A DNA stretch of 64,000 bases from Butyriboletus loyo (Eukaryota; Basidiomycota; Agaricomycetes; Boletales; Boletaceae). The position numbers were made by a program, and so were the translations under genes. How positions within the stretch are numbered: position 1 is the first letter of the stretch; every line of letters begins with the position of its first letter. The notes under the pieces were generated by a model. That model was not told the origin of the DNA. It ran no database searches and worked only from the letters and a program-made list of their open reading frames with translations. This document shows, in pieces, positions 1 through 52,996 of this stretch. The stretch is taken from NCBI GenBank assembly GCA_038093515.1, contig JBBPSI010000046.1, positions 1 to 64,000 of the forward strand, in the 5' to 3' direction.

Positions 1-2
1 CC

Positions 3-3000
3 GATGAAGAACAAGACCAAATCCGTAATTTTGTGGAAAAAGAATTAAAGAAGGGTTACATCAGACCGTCGAAATCACCACAGATGGCCCCTGTGTTCTT
101 TATTCCCAAGAAAACAGGAGAAAAGTGATTGGTCATGGACTATCGATATTTAAATGATGGAACCATTAAAAATGGTTACCCGTTACCCCTTATCCCGCAG
201 TTGATCAATACACTTAAAGGCGCCGATATCTTTACTGCACTGGATCTCCGATGGGGATTTAATAACATCCATATTAAAGAAGGAGATGAGTGGAAAGCCG
301 CATTTGTAACGCCAATTGGAGCTTATGAACCCACCGTTATGTACTTTGGGCTTACCAACTCCCCGCCTACCTTCCAAAATATGATGAACAATATTTTCAA
401 CGACATGTATGCTTGCGTCATTATTTATATCGACGACGTTATGATATTCACAAAAGGGAAAACAAGGGCAGAGCATGAGGAAAAAGTAAAAGAAGTACTC
501 CAACGCCTTCGGGAAAATGATCTATATGTAAAACCAGAAAAATGTGTATTCTCTGCGGACAAGGTGGACTTTTTAGGTATGACTGTTTCCAGGAACGGTG
601 TTGAGATGCAGTCGAAGAAGACAGATGCCATCCGAGACTGGCCAACGCCCTCGCGTCTGAAGCAGGTTCAAGCGTTCCTAGGACTATGTAACTATTATCG
701 AAGATTCATCGAGGGCTTTTCAGAGATTGCCCGACCCCTTAATAATTTAACGAAAAAGGATACTCCTTTCAAATGGGGTAACGATGAACAAAAGGTGTTT
801 GACACGCTGAAAAAGAAGTTTCACACAGCGCCCCTATTAGCCTACCCAGATCGAAACAAGGAGATGCGGGTAGAAACGGACGCTTCGGATATAGCAGTGG
901 GCGCCGTCCTTTCTGTAAAAGGAATGGATGACCTTTGGCGACCCTGTGCATTTCTTTCCCATTCTTTCGATGCTGCGGAACGGAATTATCCGATTTACGA
1001 TAAAGAACTGCTGGCAGTAATACACGCCTTAGAAGAATGGTGACACTATTTAATCGGCAGAGAAGGGTTCGAGATCTGGACAGATCACAAGAACCTCGAG
1101 TACTGGAAGAAGCCGCAAACGCTTTCGGGGAGACAAGCACGATGGCACGCGCTTCTTCAAGAATTCAATTATTTATTCGTTTACAAACCAGGCTCAACCA
1201 ATGGCAGAGCAGATGCGCTATCGCGTCGAGCAGACCACGGTGAAGCTGTTACGGATCATAATACCAATATTACGGTACTCCCACCGAACCTTTTTCTTAA
1301 TAAAGTTTCTCTTTCTTCTTCCTTTTATGATACCTTACAAAAAGAATCCGAATCGATGCTGCGGAACGGAATTATCCGATTTACGATAAAGAACTGCTGG
1401 CAGTAATACACGCCTTGGAAGAATGGCGACATTATTTAATCGGCAGAGAAGGGTTTGAGATCTGGACAGATCATAAGAACCTTGAGTACTGGAAGAAGCC
1501 GCAAATGCTCTCGGGAAGACAAGCACGATGGCATGCGCTTCTCCAGGAATTCAATTATTTATTCATTTACAAACCAGGCTCAACCAATGGCAGAGCAGAT
1601 GCGTTATCGCGTCGAGCAGACCACGGTGAAGCCGTTACGGACCATAATACCAATATTATGGTACTTCCACCGAACCTTTTCCTTAATAAAGTTTCCCTTT
1701 CTTCTTCCTTTTACGATACATTACAAAAAGAATCCGAAAAACAAAAACAAAAAGAAATACCTGGATTTTATTACGATACAGAACAATCTGTATTTATTAA
1801 CGAAAAGAAAAAAGTCTTCATACCTAAGGCACTTAGAATACAGTTACTTAATATCTGCCACGATTCGCCGATAGCCGGACACTCGGGTCAGGCCCAAACG
1901 GCTCATCTTCTCACACGGCATTTCACATGGCCTGGTGTTACAAAGGACATTAAACAATATGTAGACAGCTGTCAAGTGTGCGCCCTCACAAAGGGTAAGC
2001 AAAAAGCACCAGCAGGAAAACTGTTACCACTTCCCACAGCTAGTCATCCATGGGAAGATATTTCTGTTGATTTTGTTACCGGACTTCCTTCTTCGAACAG
2101 CTTCGATGCCATTTGTATGATAGTGGATCGCTTCTCCAAAGAAGTTGTTTACGTCCCTTGTAAGACAACTACCTCTTCTAAGGAGTTAGCAGTTATTTTT
2201 AGAGACAATGTTTGGTGCGTTCACGGACTCCCTTGTACTATAGTTTCAGATCGTGGACCCCAATTTGTATCAGACTTTACCACGGAGCTTTGCAAGCTCC
2301 TCGGCATTTCCCAGAAGATCTCTATGGCATACCATCCGCAATCTGATGGCCAAACCAAACGGATAAACTGAGAAATGGAACAATATTTATGTACCTATGT
2401 GGCTAAAAAACAAGAAACTTGGGCCAATTGGATCAAAATCGCCCAGTTCAACCATAATAATTCTCTTACTACCGCTACGGGTACAATTCCATTCTCTATC
2501 ACACGTAATTATTATCCTAGAGTCGGATTCGAAAAGTCTTCCAACACGCTAGCTGGAGATTTCGCACGCAATGCCGGGAAAGCACATGCTGAGGTTAAAG
2601 AAGCATTGGAGGAAGCTTGCAAGTGCATGGTATCGCAGGCCGATAATACTCACACAGCGTTGGATTGGTCCTTATCGGATCAAGGCACTCAAACCAAACA
2701 CTGTCGAACTTCAGCTGCCGAGCAGCATGCGGATTCATCCCGTAGTCAACATTTCTTGGGTTAAACCCTACTGAGAAACCCTTCCAGGACAGCCCGTCCT
2801 CCGTCCGGACCCCGTCAATGTCATGGACGAAGGATACTCGGAATTCGAGGTTGATTACATAGTCGCATCACGGATGAAGCGCAGGAAGTTGGAATATTTA
2901 GTGCACTGGAGGGGCTATGACGAAACGGATCGCACGTGGGAACCAGTATCCAATCTGGGAAATTTGCAGGACGTAATCGCGGATTATCACCATGCCCACC

Positions 3001-3119
3001 CTTCCACCCCTCAACCCCTTCGTGGCCTATCACTTTTTGAATTTTCTTCTCTGTTTAAAGAGTACGGTCCTGAGCACGGAACTCCCTATCAAGGAACTCG
3101 CTTGGAATACGAGTCCTAG
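3..3119 (+). pseudogene. Chromovirus pol: RT, RNase H, integrase, chromodomain (broken)
   Basis: RT spans about 3-760 and keeps the YIDD catalytic motif (about 427-438). RNase H follows with TDAS near 877. A stop (TGA 126-128) interrupts RT; TGA 1041-1043 ends the first RNase H copy; the duplication then shifts frame. The second copy restarts near 1353 and runs through the integrase HHCC finger (about 1857-1990) and the core: first Asp near 2070, second in SDRGPQ near 2250. The third catalytic residue, normally Glu in QTER, is Lys here (about 2356). TGA at 2369-2371 follows. Compared with the related copy at 45957, about 85 bases are missing near 2650, shifting frame in the integrase C-terminus. 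The chromodomain (about 2823-3119) is still open and ends with TAG just before the polypurine tract. Confidence 0.92.
967..1738 (+). repeat. 386-bp direct tandem duplication inside RNase H/integrase
   Basis: Bases 967-1352 are repeated at 1353-1738 with a small number of differences. The unit starts in RNase H and ends just before the integrase finger. Because 386 is not a multiple of 3, the second copy is in another frame, which ends the original polyprotein. The first copy has TGG TGA where the second has TGG CGA, so one stop is directly visible as a CGA to TGA change. Confidence 0.93.
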
Positions 3120-3130
3120 GGGGGGGGAGG

Positions 3131-3628
3131 TGTTATAATCATATCTCTTATTACTATCTTTTGCATTTGGACTTCGTCATATTTCTCTTTCAAAGGTCAC
3201 GTGACTTAGTGCACGTGATCGAGGGATTATACATGTGACCACAGGCTGACTAAGCATACGACGTCACAATCCAGAACTGGCCCAGACTCTATGACGTCAA
3301 GCCTCATGTATTTAATCTCCGTTTACTTCTCTTCTTTTTGATCACCATCGACTTCTATTTCCTATCATCATCGACTTGTGACTCCATTCGTATATACATG
3401 TATAGTAACTAGTCTCACGCACTGCTTGGTCTGTGCGCATTCCCTTGTAATATAAAAGGGCTTGTGGTTGCGGCTAGGATTCCCTAGCTTTAACCACTTG
3501 TCTTATTTGCTGGCAACAGTTGAGAGATTAAGGCCTGAGCTATCCTCATTACACCTCGCCAGTACTTGTGTAGCACTGTGACAGTTGCGGAACCCCGTGT
3601 GACTTGATAACATCGTTGTCTCGTAACA
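3131..3628 (+). repeat. 3' LTR of chromovirus (498 bp)
   Basis: It begins TGTTATAATC directly after a G-rich polypurine tract (3120-3130) and ends TCGTAACA, with TG...CA ends. A TATA-like box (aatataaaag) lies near 3449-3458 after the CTGTGCGCAT segment common to this LTR family. The minus-strand solo LTR at 52401-52898 is the same length and about 94 percent identical by eye. Confidence 0.95.
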
Positions 3629-5739
3629 CATAGTCAACACCTTGCTTCAGAATGCATACTTAATCACCTACAAACTATGGAAATGGCAGTTGTTGAGATG
3701 GACATTTTCATTCATATGCCACTTACTTTCTTTATATTAATGGATATGAAAGTATTAGTTTTGTATCTTCCAGGTATAATCAGACCACTTACTTCCTATC
3801 ATATTACATGAAAACAAACATCAGTCTATTAGCCAGACTCTTTCTTAGTGCATTTCAGATTACTTACTCCCTAATGATACCAAAATAGCAATAGACATGA
3901 ACAAATCCATTATTAATGTGCTGATTTGCATGTGTTCCTGTGTGACTTACTCGCTTTGAAATCAAATCTTTGATAAACAGGAACACATATTTTTTGCATT
4001 AGATTACTCACCAGCTATTAATGGAAGAGTAATAGAATAGGTTAACTCAATTTTGTTTTGTTTTGATATACCACTTACACCCTGTTAGTATCATAAAGCA
4101 TGTGAGCCTATCACAACTTCAATGCATAATGTATCACATACTCTCTTGATGGACAGAATTAAACAATCAATCAGTAAGCTCTTTTTTTATTCCATGTAAT
4201 GTTAATTACCTAGCCATCCATCATTCAAGCATAAGAATATTTTCATCCCAATCATTTTGAATGACTCAAATTCTCACCTTTGTGTGTGGAAACCAACTTG
4301 CCAATGCCCCACCCAGATTGAGATTTTGCTTTTGAGCATTCCTGGACTCAGCATAAGGTACCAAGACACTTGATGGTATCAATATACTATGCTTTACACC
4401 CAAAAATGTTTCACTCACTGTCTGACTGCATACTCAATGCAAAGCAGGATATTCTTTTCCTGTGCTGTAACCAACAGCATCTGCAGTGATGCATCATTCA
4501 ATGCAGCTGCAGTCTCTCTCAGCAATGTGTGACATCCTGTGTCAGATGTATCCATGTCTGGAAATATAATTGATACAAGAGAATAGAGATGAGAGCATAT
4601 ATATACAAAATTTCCAGCTTCACATATGCATGTGGGGGGAATATCATCTTGCTCAGATCCTTCCATATATTTCTCTTGGCAAAGATTTCTTCAGCATGCT
4701 CCCTCTGCTTCAGGAGTTGATCTTCTAGAGGCTGATCTAGGTATTTAGGCTGAAATGCCTGTATCACAAGTGCATCCCATTTGGTAAATAGCACAATAAC
4801 TGGCACTAATATCCAAACCAATCAGCTCAGACAGCATTATCATGAAAAATTATCACCTTTTCTGGTGTCACATTCACAGAAGAACCTCTCTTCTGCAACA
4901 GTGATAGCACGATGATGTTGATCCATTGGAATGCAGTACCTGCTTGTATCAAAGTCATCAGGACCTAGTAAAATAGTGCCCATTTACCAGATGGCATGAA
5001 TCCGCCTTTCGAGGAAAGTTGTGCTGGCACGCTCCGTGATGAAGTCCTTCGTCTTGTCGAACTCATCCTCACGACCAGCCTCAAAACCAGCAGAGTCATG
5101 GAAGACAAATTTCCCGTTGCTTTTGAAAACCATCTCATAATTGACATCATGGAGTCCACGCTATGAAACACAAGACAGCTTGCAAAAGCACTGCAAATGA
5201 CATGGATGTAGCCACGACACTCACTTCCCTGGATCCCTGGATCGCAAAGTCAACCTGATCATACGTCAACAGCATTAGCATCCAGTATATCTCAGCTTTA
5301 TCAACCCTACCTTTTCCCCTTGATGGTGGATCTCCGGATCTTCCGTCGCGTTGCATATACTCTGAAGGATGGTCGTCTTGCCGGCATTCGCCCTGCCAAT
5401 GATGAGAATTCTAAATCGTCCAAATTTCTCCATGAGATCCGGGTCAACATGTTGCATGAATGTCTGCATGTCGGCAGCACTCGAGTTATTGGGGTGTGGC
5501 TCGACAGAGGTGGGATCTGTGACCTGTTCCTTGGGCGCATCTGAATCTTTGTGCTGTGTCTCAAGGGCCGGGGAATCGGCGCATTTGGCTTGGGTTAGGA
5601 GAATGTTTGAATCGCTGGGGACTGCGTTGGGTTGCATGTTGAGTGCATCCGAATGCTGGGAACTTGAAGGCGCCTGAGACCAATCTCTACTGGCAATGCC
5701 GGATCGGAGGCGTTGCAATCGTTGTTTTAAAGCCTTCAT
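3629..5739 (-). pseudogene. P-loop GTPase, copy A (interrupted by chromovirus)
   Basis: Start ATG at 5739. Exons by comparison with A': 5739-5311, 5254-5225, 5160-4988, 4939-4857, 4805-4611, 4557-4419, 4341-4278. Single-codon exons follow at 4142-4144, 4079-4081, 4012-4014, 3951-3953, 3868-3870, 3793-3795, 3727-3729 and 3672-3674, then the retrotransposon. The first seven exons have the same lengths as in A'. G-domain motifs are intact: Walker A GRANAGKT in exon 1, DSAG in exon 3, TKWD in exon 5. The donor after exon 5 reads TTTTGT where A' has GTTTGT, so that junction is probably lost. With the insertion and the lost donor this copy is unlikely to make the full protein. The family is common in Agaricomycetes; its cellular role is not known to me. 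Confidence 0.85.
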
Positions 5740-6757
5740 TTCAGGAGTGCCTAAGAAAGATGAGAGATGAATGAAGCACGACTGGAGAGCTTGGGAGGTG
5801 GGTGCGAACGATGGACAACGTGCTGTTGACAGGAAATACCACGCACTACCTAATCAGGCAAAGATGACCCCTTTTGCACATAAGGGTTAACTGTTGGGAC
5901 TGGACGGGCTGGCCAGCCTGGATCAGTCAACTTGACAGAGAGGAAACTCACTTTGTAGTGCGGAAGTGTCGTAGAATTACTCCCTTCAAGAGGAGCGGAT
6001 GATATTGATGTATACATACCTTTGGGGGTGCGTCTCGGACTGCAAAGGGCGCAAAAGGCAAAGGCGAGTGGAAAGCGGTGAGCGTTGGCATGAAACGTGC
6101 GCCGCATCGCGTTCTTCTTTTCTGTATTACTATCTTAGTTGAGCGCACTGGCTGAGCCACTGTTCAGTGAGAAAACTGAACATGTAAATTACATGCCACA
6201 CTCCTCAGAACAGCGGCCCTCCGAAGACCCTGTCTGAATGGCCCAAAGATGCTCGTGCATATACAGTGGGGTTAGTGCAAGAAGGTCAATTTAGATCATC
6301 CCTGGGGTTGGGACACCGTACTAACGTGCCAAACGATCGCGTCGCCGCCACTTGTCCCTCGCGGATGGCTTCCATGTTGTTTCCTTATGTGTAGTAACGA
6401 CAGTGTACGAAAGTTTACTGTTGCACTACTACCAATCCTACTAGCCATTGTCATCCCGAACGACAGCACTCAGCCTTGATCTTACCTACTAAACTGGCAC
6501 ATGAAGGCCTCGGAAGCGCAATGACAAAGACTTCCCTTGCCAGTGGGGGGACGCTCGGTTGCAAGATTTGAAGAAACTTTTAACTATAGTTCAAGCCCGG
6601 GTAACTTCCTATTACATCCATCTCGAACGCCAAGTTCGTCCAATACTTTCGAATCTGACCAGGCGAGTAACTCTACTCCGCCATCAATATCATTCCATCA
6701 TGATAGTCCTAAAAGCCTCTCTCTTTCCTTGGAACGCGACTCGGAAGAATCAGAGCA
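5740..6757. other. Shared upstream region between GTPase A and GH5
   Basis: About 1 kb separates two divergent genes. It is duplicated in the other arm (about 24710-25792). A short open stretch on the minus strand (about 5948-6160) has a counterpart at 25412-25669 and could be an upstream exon or leader, but it has no recognisable domain. I see no other gene. Confidence 0.6.
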
Positions 6758-24709: not shown

Positions 24710-25792
24710 TACTCTGACTCTTCCAAGTCGCGTTCAAAGTTTTTCCAAGGAAAGAGAGGTTTTTAGGACCATCATGATGAATTGATATTGATGCCAGTGG
24801 AGTAGAGTTACTCGCCTAGTCAGATTCGAAAGTAGACCGAGTTATTGGACGAACCTGGTGGGACAATATCGTATTCGTGGTCGCGGTGAGAGAAGCTGGA
24901 ATCTGTTCGAGATGGGTGTAACAGGATGTTTCCCAGTTACACGGGCTTGGACTGTAGTTAAATAAAGGTTTCTTCAAATCTTGCAACCGAGCGTCCCCCA
25001 CCGGCAAGGGAAGCCTTTGTCGTTGCGCTTCCGAGTCCTTCATGTGCCAGCTTAGTAGGTTAGATCAAGGCTGAGCGCTGTCATTCGGGATGACAATGGA
25101 TAGTAGGATTGGTAGTAGTGCAACAGTAAACTTTCGTACACTGTTGTTACTACATACAAGGAGACAATATGGAAGCCACCCGCGAGGGACAAGTAGCGGC
25201 GGCACGATCGTTTGGCATGTCAGTATGGTGTCCCAACCCCAGGGATGATCTAAATTGACCTTCTTGCACTAACCCCACTGACTGTATATGCACGATGCAT
25301 CTTCGGGCGATTCAGACAGGGTCTTCAGAGGGCCGCTGTTCTGAGGAGTGTGGCATCATTGTAAGTTACTGACCATGCTCATTGCTCAGTACTCAGTCTT
25401 CTCACTGAACGGTGGCTGAGCCAGTGCGCTCAACTGAGATAGTAATACAGAAAAGAAGAGCGCGATATACCAGACGCACATTTCATCCCAACACTCACCG
25501 CTTCCCACTTGCCTTTGCCTTTTGTACCCTTGGCAGTCTGGGACGCACCTCGCAAGGTATGTATATATCCTCCGCTGGGCCTCTTGAAGGGAGTAATTAT
25601 AAGACTCTTCCGCACTACAAAGTGAGTTTCCTCTCTTTGACCGGTCCAGCCCTGTTAACCCTTATGTGAAAAAGGTGCCGATTAAGTGCGCGGCATTTCC
25701 CGCCAGCAGCACCTCATTCCACGGTGTCCATCATTCGTATCCACCACCAACCAAGTTACATTCGTCTCTCAGCGATCTTGGCCACTCCCGCG
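24710..25792. promoter_or_regulatory. Upstream region of GTPase A'
   Basis: This is the counterpart of 5740-6757. It is expected to contain the promoter and 5' leader of the GTPase. The open frame 25412-25669 is shared in part with the other arm, so an upstream exon is possible. I cannot place a transcription start. Confidence 0.5.
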
Positions 25793-28700
25793 ATGAAGGC
25801 CTTAAAACAACGAGTTCGACACCTCCGATCCGGCACCGCCAGTAAAGATTCGTCTCCGGCGCCTTCAAGTTCCCAGCATTCCCATGCACCCAACATGCAA
25901 CCCAACGCAGTCCCCAGCGATTCAGACATTCTCCTGACCCAAGCCAAAGGCGCCGATGCGCTGGCCCTTGAGACACAGCACAAAGATTCAGATGCGCCCA
26001 AGGAACAGGTCACAGATCCCACCTCTCTCGAGCCGCACCCCGATAACTCGAGTGCTGCCGACATGCGGACGTTCATGCAACATGTTGACCCGGATCTCAT
26101 GGAGAAATTTGGACGATTCAGAATCCTCATCATCGGCAGGGCGAATGCCGGCAAGACGACCATCCTTCAGAGCATATGCAACGGGACGGAAGATCCGGAG
26201 ATCCACCATCAAGGGGAAAAGGTAGGGTTGATAAAGCTGAGATATACCGGATGCTAATGCTGTGGACATGTGATCAGGTTGACTTTGCGATCCAGGGATC
26301 CAGGGAGGTGAGTGTCATGGCTATGTCCATGTCATTTGCAGTGCTTTTGCAAGCCGTCTCGTGTTTCACAGCGTGGACTCCATGATATCAATTATGAGAT
26401 GGTTTTCAAAAGCAACGGGAAATTTGTCTTCCATGACTCTGCTGGTTTTGAGGCTGGTCGTGAGGATGAGTTCGAGAAGACAAAGAACTTCATCACGGAG
26501 CGTGCCAGTATAACTTTCCTCGAAAAGCGGATTCATGCCATCTGGTGAGTGGGCATCATTTTACTAGGTCCTGATGACTCTAATACAAGCAGGTACTGCA
26601 TTCCAATGGATCAACATCATCGTGCTATCACTGTTGCAGAAGAGAGGTTCTTCTGTGAATGTGACACCAGAAAAGGTGATAATGTTTCATGATAATGCTG
26701 TCTGAGCTGATTGGTTTGGGTATTAGTGCCAGTGATTGTGCTATTTACCAAATGGGATGCACTTATCATACAGGCATTTCAGCCTAACTATCTAAATCAG
26801 CCTCTAGAAGATCAACTTGTGAAGCAGAGGGAGCATGCTGAAGAAATATTTGCCAAGAGAAATATATGGAAGGATCTGAGCAATATGGTATTCCCCCCAC
26901 AGGCATATGTGAAGCTGGAGAGTTTGTATATATATGCTCTCATCTCTATTCTCTTGTATTAATCATATTCCCAGACATGGATACATCTGACACAGGATGT
27001 CACACATTGCTGAGAGTGACTGCAGCTGCATTGAATGATGCATCACTGCAGATGCTGTTGGTTACAGCACAGGAAAAGAATATCCTGCTCTGCATTGAGT
27101 ATGCAGTTAGACAGTAAGTGAACCATGTTCTGGGTGTAAAGCATAGTATATTGATACCATAAAGTATCTTGGTACCTTATTCTGAGTCCAGGACTGCTCA
27201 AAAGCAAGATCTCAATCTGGATGAGGCATTGGCAAGTTGGTTTCCACACACAAAGGTAAGAATTTGAGTCATTCACAAATTATTGGGATGAAAATATTCT
27301 TATGCTTGAATGATATTGATGGATGGCTAGGTAATTAACATTACATGAAATCAAAAAAGAGCTTACTGATTGATTGTTTAATTCTGTCCATGAAGAGAGT
27401 ATGTGATACATTATGCATTGAAGTTGTGATATGCTCACATACTTTATGTTAGGGTGTAAGTGATATATCAAAACAAAAACATTCATTTAACCTATTCTAT
27501 CACTCTTGCATTAATAGCTGGTGAGTAATCTAATGCAGACTTGAAAATATGAGTTCTTGTTTATCAAGGATTTGATTTCAAAGCGAGTAAGTCACACAGG
27601 AATACATGTAAATCAGCCCATTAATGAATTTGTTCATGTCTATTGCTATTTTGGTATCATTAGAGAGTAAGTGATCTGAAATGCACTAAGAAAGAGTCTG
27701 GCTAATAGATTAATGTTTGTTTGCATATAATATGATAGGAAGTAAGTGGTCTGATTATACCTGAAAGACACAAAACTAATACTTTCATATCCATTAATCT
27801 AAAGAAAGTAAGTGGCATATGGATGAAAAATATAACTTTATTGATGACTTTGTGTCCATCTCAACAACTACCATTTCCATGTTAGTTTGTAGGTGATCAA
27901 GTATGCATTCTGAAGCAAGGTGTTGACTATGGGCCTATGTGCTGTACATTCCTTTCATAGCTGGTAAGTGTTCTCTCTGAATATAAAATCCAAGCACTCC
28001 TGATGAATTCACCCTGTGCTGCTGTTCAATTGAAAGATTGTAAGCACTCTGATGTGGAATTAAAATGAGAGATAGCTGATGATAAACATCCTTTGTATTG
28101 CACTCTCATTCATAGCAAGTAAGTGATCTACAGTGAATACATCTGAAGTGAGAATTCTGTTGACACACATGCTTCCTCTACTCCCCTATCCATAGGATGT
28201 AAGTGGTCTTGCATGGATTTAATGTAAGAATGCTACTGATGAGCATCCTGTTATGGATTGGTATTTTTCCTCTGTTTTTCCTGCTGCTCTCCCAATGATA
28301 GGATGTAGGTGGACTAATGCTGATTGAAAGGAGAATGTGTTTATGAACATCTCTTCTGGTACTCTCCCATTGATAGTTTGTAAGTGGTCTGATGTGAATT
28401 TGAAATGAAATTGGTGCTGATGAACATCCCTTGTGCTGCTCTCCAATTGATAGTTGGTGTGTGGCCAGATGTGGATTTGAAATGAGAATGGTGTTAATGA
28501 ACATTGCTCCTGTTGCTCTTCCATTGACAGGCTGTAAGTGGCTGGATGTGAATTGGAATGAGAATGGTGCTGATGACCATTCCTCCTATTTCCCCCCATT
28601 GACAGGCTGTAAGTGGCTGTATGTGAATTGGAATGAGAATGGTGCTGATGACCATTCCTCCTATTTCCCCCCATTGATAGCATGTAAGTGGCTGGATGTG

Positions 28701-30956
28701 AATTGGAATGAGAATGGTGCTGATGACTATTCTTCCTACATATTTCCCCCATTGATAGCATGTAAGTGGCTGGATGTGAATTGGAATAAGAATGGTGCTG
28801 ATGACTATTCTTCCTACATATTTCCCCTGTTGATAGCGTGTAAGTGGCTGGATGTGAATTGGAATGAGAATGGTGCTGATAGACATTCTTCCTATTTTCC
28901 CCCATTGACAGGTTGTAAGTGGCTGGATGTGAATTGGAATGAGAATGGTGCTAATGACCATTCTTCCTATTTCCCCCCATTGACAGGCTGTAAGTGGCTG
29001 TATGTGAATTGGAATGAGAATGGTGCTGATGACCATTCCTCCTATTTTCCCCCATTTATAGCGTGTAAGTGGCTATATGTGAATTGGAATGAGAATGGTG
29101 CTGATGACCATTCCTCCCATTGACAGGCTGTAAGTGGCTGGATGTGAATTGGAATGAGAATGGTGCTGATGACCATTCCTCCTATTTTCTCCCATTGATA
29201 GCGTGTAAGTGGTTGGATGTGAATTGGAATGAGAATGGTGCTGATGACTATTCTTCCTACATATTTCCCCCCATTGATAGCATGTAAGTGGCTGGATGTG
29301 AATTGGAATGAGAATGGTGCTGATGACCATTCCTCCTATTTCTCCCCATTGATAGGCTGTAAGTGGCTGGATGTGAATTGGAATGAGAATGGTGCTGATG
29401 ACCATTTCCATTTCTCTTATTTCCCCCCATTGATAGGCTGTAAGTGGCTAGATGTGAATTGGAATGAGAATGGTGCTGATGATCATTCCTCCTATTTTCC
29501 CCCATTGATAGCATGTAAGTGCCTGAATGTGAATTTGGAGATGGTACTGAAGACCATTCTCCCATTTCTCTCCCATTAATAGGCAGTAAGTCATGTAATG
29601 TGAATTTAAAATGTAGAGTTACTCATGAGCATCCCTCCTGCTCCTCTCCCTTGATAGCAAGTAAGTGATCTAATATTGAGTTGAAAGAAGAATGCTGTTA
29701 ATGAGCTTTCCTTGTGCTCCTCCACTGATAGGAAGTAAGTGGTCCGATGTGGATCTAAAATGAAAACCCTACTAAGAAGTATCCTCCCTGCTGCTCTTTC
29801 TTTCACAGGATGTATGTTGTCTCATATGGACTCTAGGCCAGATGCTGCTGCTGATCTCTCTGATGGTTGACTTGTCTGCTTCTATTGCTATTTGGATATT
29901 AGTTTGTAAGCATCTTTGTATGCATGTGAAAATGTTGATTGCTGATTGGTTCCTTTTCATGCTTTCTCATTGACAGGAAGTGAGTGATCTGACCTGACAT
30001 TGGAGAATGAATGATTTATCTGCCTACTTTAATCTTCCTTCCAGAGGGTAAATTACATCATATGTTGTTCCAATGTGTATTACTAATATATGCCTGCCTG
30101 CCTCTCATGTTTTCTTCAAAATAGAATGTAAGTGATCTCATTCACAATTGAAATCTGCATTCTGCTCATGAAACCTCTGTTTATGTTGAAATTTTAATAT
30201 AACCCTATTATTTCACAACTTCTGGTATGCTTAGCTGGTAAGTATTATCTTGCTACTATAATAGTTATGCAGCTATGAATTGATTATCATTCCTATAGGA
30301 TGTAAGCTTATGTTCCCATGCAATATTATTTGTGTTATTTACTTTTATGCTTTATTCACATTTAGGAGGTAGGACATCTATGTGATTGTTTAAATATTGT
30401 ACTCATAATTTGACCAGAGTGTCAGTTTTTAACTTGAAGGTCTTTATATTGCAATTGACATCAAGCAGATTGTCACCAACCCTCAGTCCTCCCTGGTAAA
30501 TCATTTATCATTTGATCATACTAGGTATTTGCTACAACAATTCATTTCAGAGTTCTCTTCAACCAACCAAGGCAAAGACCATAGTGGCATGTATAATCAT
30601 GAAAAAATATATTTACTGTATCAACTCTTTATGTATTTCAGATCAAAAAGAGAACCAACACTGAGAGAAGGGTTCTGCAACATGGCATTCGTAAGTTAAT
30701 TCATTTTGAATTTTCATAACTTTGATATCTTTCCATAGGCCTTATACTAGTTCTTCAATATTCCTTCACTCTGGTCCAAAATAAATCCAAAAATCCCTTT
30801 GCCTTAGCAGAAAAAAGGTATAAAAGATCTGGGGTATCTGCTCAGATATCAAAGAAACTGGATGAGATCTTATCCAAACATTTTACCACCAAATCTAGAG
30901 ATGAAAAAGTGGACCTTGTTATGGACATCATAAAGCAGCACCCTTTGTGTAGGTAG
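25793..30956 (+). CDS. P-loop GTPase A' with about 50 exons, 40 of them one codon long
   Basis: Start ATG 25793. Exons 25793-26221, 26278-26307, 26372-26544, 26593-26675, 26727-26921, 26975-27113 and 27192-27255 encode the G domain (371 codons, phase closes). Motifs are Walker A GRANAGKT (G1), DSAG (G3), TKWD (G4), ending in WFPHTK. Forty single-codon exons follow from 27396 to 30368. The last exons are 30466-30495, 30551-30583, 30642-30690 and 30739-30956 (stop TAG 30954-30956). The final exon begins with a hydrophobic stretch (LILVLQYSFTLV) that could anchor the protein in a membrane, then a Lys-rich tail. The total is about 520 residues and every phase closes. The exon at 30466 is the least certain join. 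No stop occurs in the model. Role unknown; by family a GTP-binding protein. Confidence 0.82.
27256..27395 (+). other. Double-length intron at the start of the codon-exon array
   Basis: This 140-nt intron (GTAAGA to AAG) is about twice the usual length. An internal CTAG followed at once by GTAATT (27327-27336) looks like an acceptor and donor with nothing between. Copy A has the same arrangement. It may be two introns whose codon exon was lost. Confidence 0.45.
27396..30368 (+). repeat. Array of 40 single-codon exons and their introns
   Basis: Single codons start at 27396, 27453, 27518, 27584, 27664, 27739, 27805, 27886, 27961, 28037, 28116, 28196, 28302, 28377, 28454, 28531, 28606, 28681, 28759, 28837, 28912, 28987, 29062, 29127, 29202, 29281, 29356, 29437, 29512, 29583, 29658, 29732, 29809, 29903, 29977, 30045, 30125, 30235, 30299 and 30366. 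Each is preceded by AG and followed by GT, usually GTAAGT. Introns are 54-107 nt, many not a multiple of 3. Most contain a CTGAT-like branch site and a pyrimidine-rich 3' part. Residues encoded: 7 Arg, 7 Ala, 4 each of His, Asp, Glu and Leu, 3 Phe, 2 Gln, one each of Gly, Lys, Ile, Val, Asn. None is a stop. Confidence 0.8.
28531..29585 (+). repeat. Young tandem expansion of a 75-bp intron-plus-codon unit
   Basis: Fourteen units follow one another, most 75 bp (others 65, 71, 78, 79 and 81). Each starts GTAAGTGGCTGG or close, has GTGCTGATGA in the middle and ends in a C/T-rich run plus TTGACAG or TTGATAG. The codon after each is GCT, CAT, CGT or GTT. Units are roughly 90-97 percent alike, far closer than the flanking units, so this part spread recently. 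Long open frames on both strands here are a by-product of the 75-bp period. Confidence 0.93.
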
Positions 30957-51984: not shown

Positions 51985-52996
51985 TGTTATGACAGCAACA
52001 ACCAGCAATGCTAGGCTGAATACTATGTTTCACAGGCGGTAGACTCCAGTTGCAGTGCTACACCAAGCACTGGTGATGATAGAGATAGAGCTTAGAACCT
52101 TAATCCTCAACTGTTGCCAGCAAATAGACAAGTGGTTAAAGCTAGGGAATCCTAGCCCAAACCACAAGCCTTTTATATTACAAGGAAACGTGCACAGACC
52201 AAGCAGTGCATGAGACTAATTACTATACAAGTATATACAAGAAGAAGCACAGGATTGACAGAGATTAAATAGAAGTTGATGGTGATCAAAAAGAAGAGAA
52301 GCAAATGGATATTAAATACATGAGGTGTGACATCATAGAGTCTGGGCCAGTCTGGACCATGATGTCATATGCTTAGTCAGCCTTTGGTCACATGTATAAT
52401 TGTTACGAGACAACAATGTTATCAAGTCACACGGGGTTCTGCAACTGTCGCAGTGCTACACAAGTACCAGCGAGGTGTAATGAGGATAGCTCAGGCCTTA
52501 ATCTCTCAACTGTTGCCAGCAAATAAGACAAGTGGTTAAAGCTAGGGAATCCTAGCCGCAACCACGAGCCCTTTTTATATTACAAGGGAATGCGCACAGA
52601 CCATGCAGTGCATGTGACTAGTTACTATACAAGTATATACGAAGGGAATCACAGGTCAATGATGATGGGAAATAGAAGTCGATGGTGATCAAAAAGAAGA
52701 GAAGCAAACAGAGATTAAATACATGAGGCATGATGTCATAGAGTCTGGGCCAGTCTGGACCGTGACGTCATATGCTTAGTCAGCCTGTGGTCACATGTAT
52801 AATCCCACGATCACGTGCACTAAGTCACATGACCTTTGAAAGAGAAATATGACGAAGTCCAAATGCAAAAGATGGTTATAAGAGATACAATTATAACAAT
52901 AATCCCATGATCACATGCACTGAGTCACATGACCTTTGAAAGAAAAATGGTGAAGTCCAAATGCAAAAGTCTGTTATAAGAGATACAATTATAACA
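51985..52996 (-). repeat. Old chromovirus LTR split by a younger one
   Basis: The outer LTR (51985-52400 plus 52904-52996) reads on the minus strand TGTTATAATT to CATAACA and is diverged, with many CG to CA or TG changes. No clear target duplication of its own was found. It is interrupted by the LTR at 52401-52898. Confidence 0.85.
52401..52898 (-). repeat. Chromovirus solo LTR (498 bp) nested in an older LTR
   Basis: TGTTACGAG to ATTATAACA on the plus strand, flanked by perfect ATAAT duplications (52396-52400 and 52899-52903). It has the same length as the LTR at 3131-3628 and about 94 percent identity by eye. Confidence 0.95.

Follow-up and report, generated by a model that had tools for sequence, protein, structure and literature searches.

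Can a fungal gene be assembled from a long series of exons that each hold a single codon? This question is raised by a GTPase gene in the stretch of Butyriboletus loyo DNA analysed here (contig JBBPSI010000046.1, 64,000 nucleotides (nt); hereafter the window). On the + strand, at 25793-30956, seven ordinary exons are followed by 40 one-codon exons and then by four C-terminal exons. We call this main copy, on the contig that we label C46, W, and the further copies found when the genome (30.3 Mb, 420 contigs) was searched are called W2 and L009-L019. A comparison of W with these copies and with related proteins makes it quite probable that the single-codon exons are spliced in series into a hypervariable segment of the GTPase, one that is probably related to recognition.

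The array itself was found as a first-pass annotation of this DNA had described it. All 40 successive AG-NNN-GT units are present, each with an exon of exactly 3 nt, from 27396-27398 to 30366-30368; the introns between them are 54-107 nt long, many of them not multiples of three (19, 7 and 13 leave remainders of 0, 1 and 2), and 28 of the 40 array introns begin with GTAAGT. Removal of the introns joins 371, 40 and 108 codons in a single open frame without a stop, also as proposed, and the joined protein has 519 residues. Pfam PF01926 (MMR_HSR1) matched residues 110-215 with 24.6 bits (cutoff 21.9) in a scan of the 371-residue upstream part, in which no match to NACHT, ANK or WD40 was found, and a PDB sequence search found nothing beyond weak matches to P-loop proteins (best E 3.3e-4).

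The spacing of the units is strict. Within 27250-30480, the pattern [CT]AG-Nk-GTAAGT occurred 26 times at k=3 and not once at the remaining values of k between 0 and 12; since the count at spacing 0 with GTAAGT was 0, recursive splicing at zero-length exons was rejected. Genome-wide, paired AG-NNN-GTAAGT units lying 55-85 nt apart were found at 253 places, compared with 18 for the reversed pattern, and the corresponding counts were 0 versus 1 in the control for a spacing of 4 and 6 versus 2 for a spacing of 6. As to introner elements, which are near-identical introns in unrelated genes, the places listed among the 253 sit on C6, C8, C46, C75 and C111, contigs that bear loci of the GTPase family. 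The first-pass annotation had taken the exact spacing as strong evidence, and this did not hold. Tandem Repeats Finder (TRF) reported a tandem repeat of period 75 at 28366-29591, and as the array units are homologous repeats of ~75 bp, their 3-nt spacing is largely inherited. When the expected number of exon insertions and deletions (indels) was estimated from intron length variation, 1.0 was expected and 0 seen in W (1.1 and 0 in L018), and exact spacing was rejected as proof of exon use because the expectation for W is itself no more than about one exon indel. The absence of stop codons had rightly been regarded as weak evidence: by column shuffling it has P=0.39 in W, and it was likewise rejected as proof for that copy. 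The value was P=0.022 for L018 and 0.002 for W, L017 and L018 pooled, of which L017 and L018 share ancestry. The 310 codons of seven arrays include no stop and no codon with C in third place. These codon lists were curated by hand and do not contain a 41st unit, late units whose donors are weak, or AAT/AGT triplets that follow another unit by 28-36 nt; in them W, L018 and L016 hold 40, 43 and 42 successive 3-nt exons.

Evidence that the splice junctions are used came from the conserved flanks of the arrays, where 26 microexons were aligned across 8 loci at the 5' end (L010 and L015, with the anchor pattern unmatched, were left aside) and 6 loci at the 3' end. The core AG/GT dinucleotides varied across paralogs at 1 of 104 sites (0/60 in the 5' flank and 1/44 in the 3' flank, the sole change being a GT to GC donor in L019), whereas decoy AG/GT dinucleotides in the same introns varied at 47 of 214 (Fisher p=2.8e-8). 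When all junction sites were counted, 7 of 208 were variable, compared with 270 of 1711 sites elsewhere (p=5.7e-8). The exon bases themselves do vary, at position 1 in 8 of the 26 microexons, at position 2 in 5 and at position 3 in none. The gene's six ordinary introns have 24 core sites, of which 2 are variable, the changes lying in W2, L011 and L014. In addition, a branch-point-like motif, CTRAY, is present in 23 of the 40 array introns of W (shuffled mean 7.0, maximum 17), in 27 of 42 in L018 and in 16 of 25 in L017, although these counts are not independent, the array introns being related. To judge from these sequence patterns, the triplets of W probably behave as used, coding exons.

The most striking feature, which the first-pass annotation missed while describing the array correctly, seems to be that the codons are hypervariable and the introns are not. 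Among 133 mid-array units from 8 loci, restricted to those with the donor GTAAGT, the pairwise difference (pi) was 0.645, 0.720 and 0 at codon positions 1, 2 and 3 and 0.054 in the 72-nt introns, and 261 of the 307 pairs of units with identical introns carried different codons. Column entropy reached 1.54 and 1.82 bits at codon bases 1 and 2 and 1.11 bits in the next column, in a fit to 91 mid units whose one exon of 'length 0' is the triplet AAG. Every intron column is less variable than codon positions 1 and 2 in L009, L011, L012 and L016, and the older array of L018 repeats the pattern (0.79/0.66/0.53 versus 0.27, with no intron column equal to positions 1 and 2). The contrast is weakest in W (0.43/0.64 versus 0.058) and strongest in L012. 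The third base is T in all 133 filtered units, so stop codons are excluded there; TTG in L009 and AAG in L012 fall outside the filter.

Related proteins were compared as protein sequence alone, and 12 were examined for the composition of the segment. Among the best 120 of 1202 matches, the closest protein is that of Butyriboletus roseoflavus (66%), followed by those of Imleria, Lanmaoa, Chiua, Boletus, Rhizopogon, Suillus and Pisolithus, all of the order Boletales. P0006, P0018 and other uninterrupted proteins (source jgi, short contigs), which are probably transcript-derived, share the C-terminal part of W, and in these uninterrupted relatives a variable stretch lies directly after WFPH and before the C-terminal part. 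P0083 and P0179 are, by eye, nearly identical past this stretch and dissimilar within it. NNT codons cannot encode K, Q, E, M or W, and in 3 of the 12 relatives the longest run free of these residues falls exactly in the variable stretch (26 residues in P0083, 33 in P0179 and 22 in P0125); of 180 G domains, 2 reach a run of 22. By eye, the F-E-R-N-L-D that microexons of W encode also resembles F-K-N-L-T of P0018 and F-A-N-L-D of P0006. Separately, the model tails after WFPH in P0043 (Boletus edulis) and in P0139, P0145 and P0178 (Suillus) resemble read-through of repeated introns: a hand back-translation of P0043 gave a ~91-nt repeat that is seemingly read through and is compatible with AG-TNT-GTGAGT, and in the Suillus tails repeats of ~72 nt, perhaps with exons of 6 nt, seem to have been read through. 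Such tails suggest mis-annotated arrays in other Boletales.

Several observations weigh against use of the triplets as exons. Mid-array exon indels in 8 loci (3 seen, 2.2 expected) are at the level of chance and so give no sign of frame preservation there. Three of the longer arrays have one frame-breaking unit each, L009 (a 2-nt exon), L011 (1 nt) and L012 (1 nt), near 5010-5030, 4330 and 2030 of the oriented loci, respectively; such units are natural tests of exon skipping, and the curated arrays of W, L016 and L018 contain none. Before exon 7, AT replaces AG in L011 and L014, and W2 has lost a donor, so that part of the GTPase family is decaying. The units compared for diversity are repeats, and pairs of them are therefore not independent, and in W 5 of 72 intron columns match the variability of codon position 1. 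The segment of the relatives, moreover, is known from protein sequence, and in 9 of the 12 it is hardly covered or includes residues among K, Q, E, M and W.

Short fungal introns are usually recognised as units. We infer that splicing of the array would proceed by ordinary intron definition, the introns being removed from the pre-mRNA one after another in an order in which the growing exon gains one codon (NNN) at every step, with a strong donor, GTAAGT, left for the next. Two spliceosomes could hardly share a 3-nt exon, which makes sequential steps likely, and good donors may compensate for the unconstrained exon bases. The first-pass annotation had proposed either an extreme series of 3-nt exons or an unknown splicing mode; the first part stands, in that the triplets behave as used exons (conserved junctions, in-frame join, segment in relatives), and the second is unneeded because ordinary, intron-defined, stepwise splicing suffices. 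The product would be a GTPase whose G domain and C-terminal part are separated by a segment of ~40 residues, the middle of which is hypervariable among paralogs. The middle units would have been born by tandem duplication of an exon-plus-intron unit and their introns kept alike, while codon positions 1 and 2 would change much faster. For this we infer diversifying selection as the probable driver, as in fungal nonself-recognition receptors; a recognition role is suggested by the variation among paralogs, the expanded family and similar features of fungal recognition genes.

The same exons may be used combinatorially, most of them being alternatively included to give many segment variants per gene at the RNA level. 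Each exon is 3 nt long and in phase 0, and any subset therefore keeps the frame; the 1- and 2-nt units of L009, L011 and L012 would be harmless only when skipped, and a precedent is offered by the truffle NACHT-ANK genes, as three papers report (PMC3689799, PMC4986451, PMC10197012). The array donors of W, however, are near consensus in their majority, which fits steady inclusion, and we regard extensive alternative inclusion as possible but rather doubtful.

A different account of the hypervariability is that a mutational mechanism targets the triplets, or that the codons are older than recently copied introns, instead of selection having acted. The share of mid units with different codons is near its ceiling even when introns are identical and stays nearly flat as the intron difference grows; pi in L012 is 0.69/0.78 for the codons versus 0.017; and codon strings are common to loci at no more than chance level (k=4, P=0.17; k=3, P=0.06). 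Gene conversion of introns combined with strong diversifying selection could nevertheless yield the same pattern, and no enzyme or template turned up, none having been searched for; we consider this account unlikely. About as improbable, and put forward as speculation, is a eukaryotic scheme of codon-cassette diversification. Here the codons would be interchangeable and the third-base T would bar stops from the variable zone, and the residues would be re-randomised, with the introns remaining alike, either by a process that works on the first two bases or by selective copying of introns only; an expanded GTPase family across Boletales would thus hold libraries of a recognition segment per gene and, via frame-neutral skipping, per transcript.

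Serial use of the triplets as exons was also weighed against the view that the array is the repeat-rich portion of one long intron, 27256-30468, whose triplets never appear in mRNA. Tandem repeats are common within introns, the spacing is inherited within the repeats and some sister copies have broken units, but the junction dinucleotides are conserved far above the decoys, hypervariability is restricted to the first two exon bases, and related proteins have a segment at that very place. A single long intron is thus very unlikely.

Searching the genome's contigs with the first 605 bases gave 13 matches. Arrays are borne by 11 further loci, namely W2, L009 (C149), L010 together with L019 (C8), L011 (C111), L012 and L016 (C159), L013 (C152), L014 (C337), L015 (C351), L017 (C75) and L018 (C6); many of these arrays are cut by contig ends or insertions, and several are incomplete. 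On C8, L010 and L019 (at about 65.5 and 73.4 kb) seem to be the 5' and 3' parts of an array gene, ~8 kb apart. No array was found at L021 (C107, at a contig end), at L022 (C146) or in any of L023-L027, five GTPase loci that are more distant. In 8 copies the G-domain exons are without gap or stop, and the ratio of nonsynonymous to synonymous rates (dN/dS) over them is 0.37 overall and 0.22 for codons 106-371; the G domain is under purifying selection. That the whole family consists of decaying, repeat-borne pseudogenes is the least probable explanation, since these intact G domains, the conserved splice sites and the arrays of W, L016 and L018 that keep the frame stand against it, although W2 is interrupted and several copies are cut (some of the ends being contig ends) or have damaged splice sites.

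The features of the window are collected below.

Features of the GTPase gene W and of its paralog W2 in the window
Feature	Position	Strand	Basis or remark
Exon 1, N-terminal tail and G1 motif (GRANAGKTT)	25793..26221	+	open frame and exon join
Exons 2-7, remainder of G domain (DSAG, TKWD)	26278..27255	+	end ...ASWFPHTK, phase 0
Exons 2-7 individually	26278-26307, 26372-26544, 26593-26675, 26727-26921, 26975-27113, 27192-27255		
5' conserved array flank, microexons 1-15 (R G L R R E K F L I Q D D F L)	27396..28456	+	
Hypervariable middle, microexons 16-29 (A A H H R V A R A R H A A H)	28531..29514	+	all NNT, ~75-bp repeats
3' conserved array flank, microexons 30-40 (A Q E D F E R N L D E)	29583..30368	+	
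Probable 41st microexon AGT, donor GTCAGT	30418-30420	+	matching place and donor in L018
C-terminal exons, with stop	30469-30495, 30551-30583, 30642-30690, 30739-30956	+	frame join
W2, inverted incomplete paralog: G domain and 8 microexons	3629..5773	-	BLASTN 91.9% to 25759-27931

The microexon at 30418 probably belongs to the array as its 41st unit, because the junction recurs at this place, with a different codon, in L018, a diverged paralog: CAT followed by GTCAGT, 52 nt past the preceding unit, which matches the spacing in W. The unit is also visible in the alignment of W, L009, L012, L016 and L019. In P0006 and P0018 the C-terminal part is homologous to the C-terminal exons of W, the second of which has two possible donors, GT at 30583 or GC at 30571 (giving 30551-30571). 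Homology of W2 extends on its 5' side to 5937-6541 (86.4% to the main copy) and breaks off at 3629, where sequence that by eye is retroelement-like begins. Within this retroelement-like stretch lies a 386-bp tandem duplication (967-1738, 94% matches). Stretches resembling the element at 1-3660 recur between 42277 and 49336, and a 98-bp tandem repeat at 52799-52996 looks, by eye, like the element end near 3160-3240.

If serial splicing of the array is true, ~40 one-codon exons are joined one after another by a fungal spliceosome, and a GTPase family carries a hypervariable segment that is built residue by residue. The codon-sized-exon architecture of truffles would then extend to a different gene family in another phylum, and Boletales would have a candidate nonself-recognition family, in which an array of one-codon exons may be a means of making recognition proteins differ. 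Microexon splicing, and the way in which codon-level hypervariability originates within near-identical introns, could be studied in this family as a natural test bed. It is also implied that public gene models of this GTPase family are commonly truncated at the array or read through its introns.

The first-pass annotation knew of no description of such an array. In the open-licence PMC literature, none was found in a basidiomycete or in a GTPase, but three papers refer to Iotti et al. 2012 for the presence of 'tens of codon-sized microexons' in the NACHT-ANK genes of truffles (PMC3689799, PMC4986451, PMC10197012). Other very small exons in fungi, such as the Xlr2 microexons of Trichoderma (PMC11121469) and the one-nucleotide exon of Fusarium CYP621A (PMC12940212), are isolated, with neither an array nor hypervariability. 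Recursive splicing at zero-length exons (compare PMC6224609) shares with the bolete array the stepwise removal of introns and rebuilt donors, but in the array AG and GT stand 3 nt apart and none directly adjoin with GTAAGT. The G-domain proteins of Suillus, Rhizopogon, Boletus and Butyriboletus (PF01926-like) are of the same family, with the WFPH motif and, where covered, the C-terminal part; their public gene models mostly end at or read through the array, and the names given to them do not mention a hypervariable segment. The nank genes of the truffle Tuber melanosporum likewise form an expanded fungal gene family and have 3-nt exons by the tens, and their microexons are discussed, in the same papers, as a diversification mechanism. 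They differ in that W is a P-loop GTPase without a NACHT or ANK match in its upstream part and has its closest proteins in Boletales, in another phylum, and in that the codons of the bolete arrays are themselves hypervariable, with T in third place. A further likeness is to HET-E, HET-D and HET-R of Podospora anserina, recognition genes with near-alike repeats, concerted evolution and hypervariable codons at fixed places, which for relatives of HET-E lie in the WD repeats (PMC4986451). There the repeat is protein, whereas in the bolete array it is an intron plus one codon; in the array, as in HET-E, the repeats are otherwise alike and excess diversity is limited to fixed codon positions.

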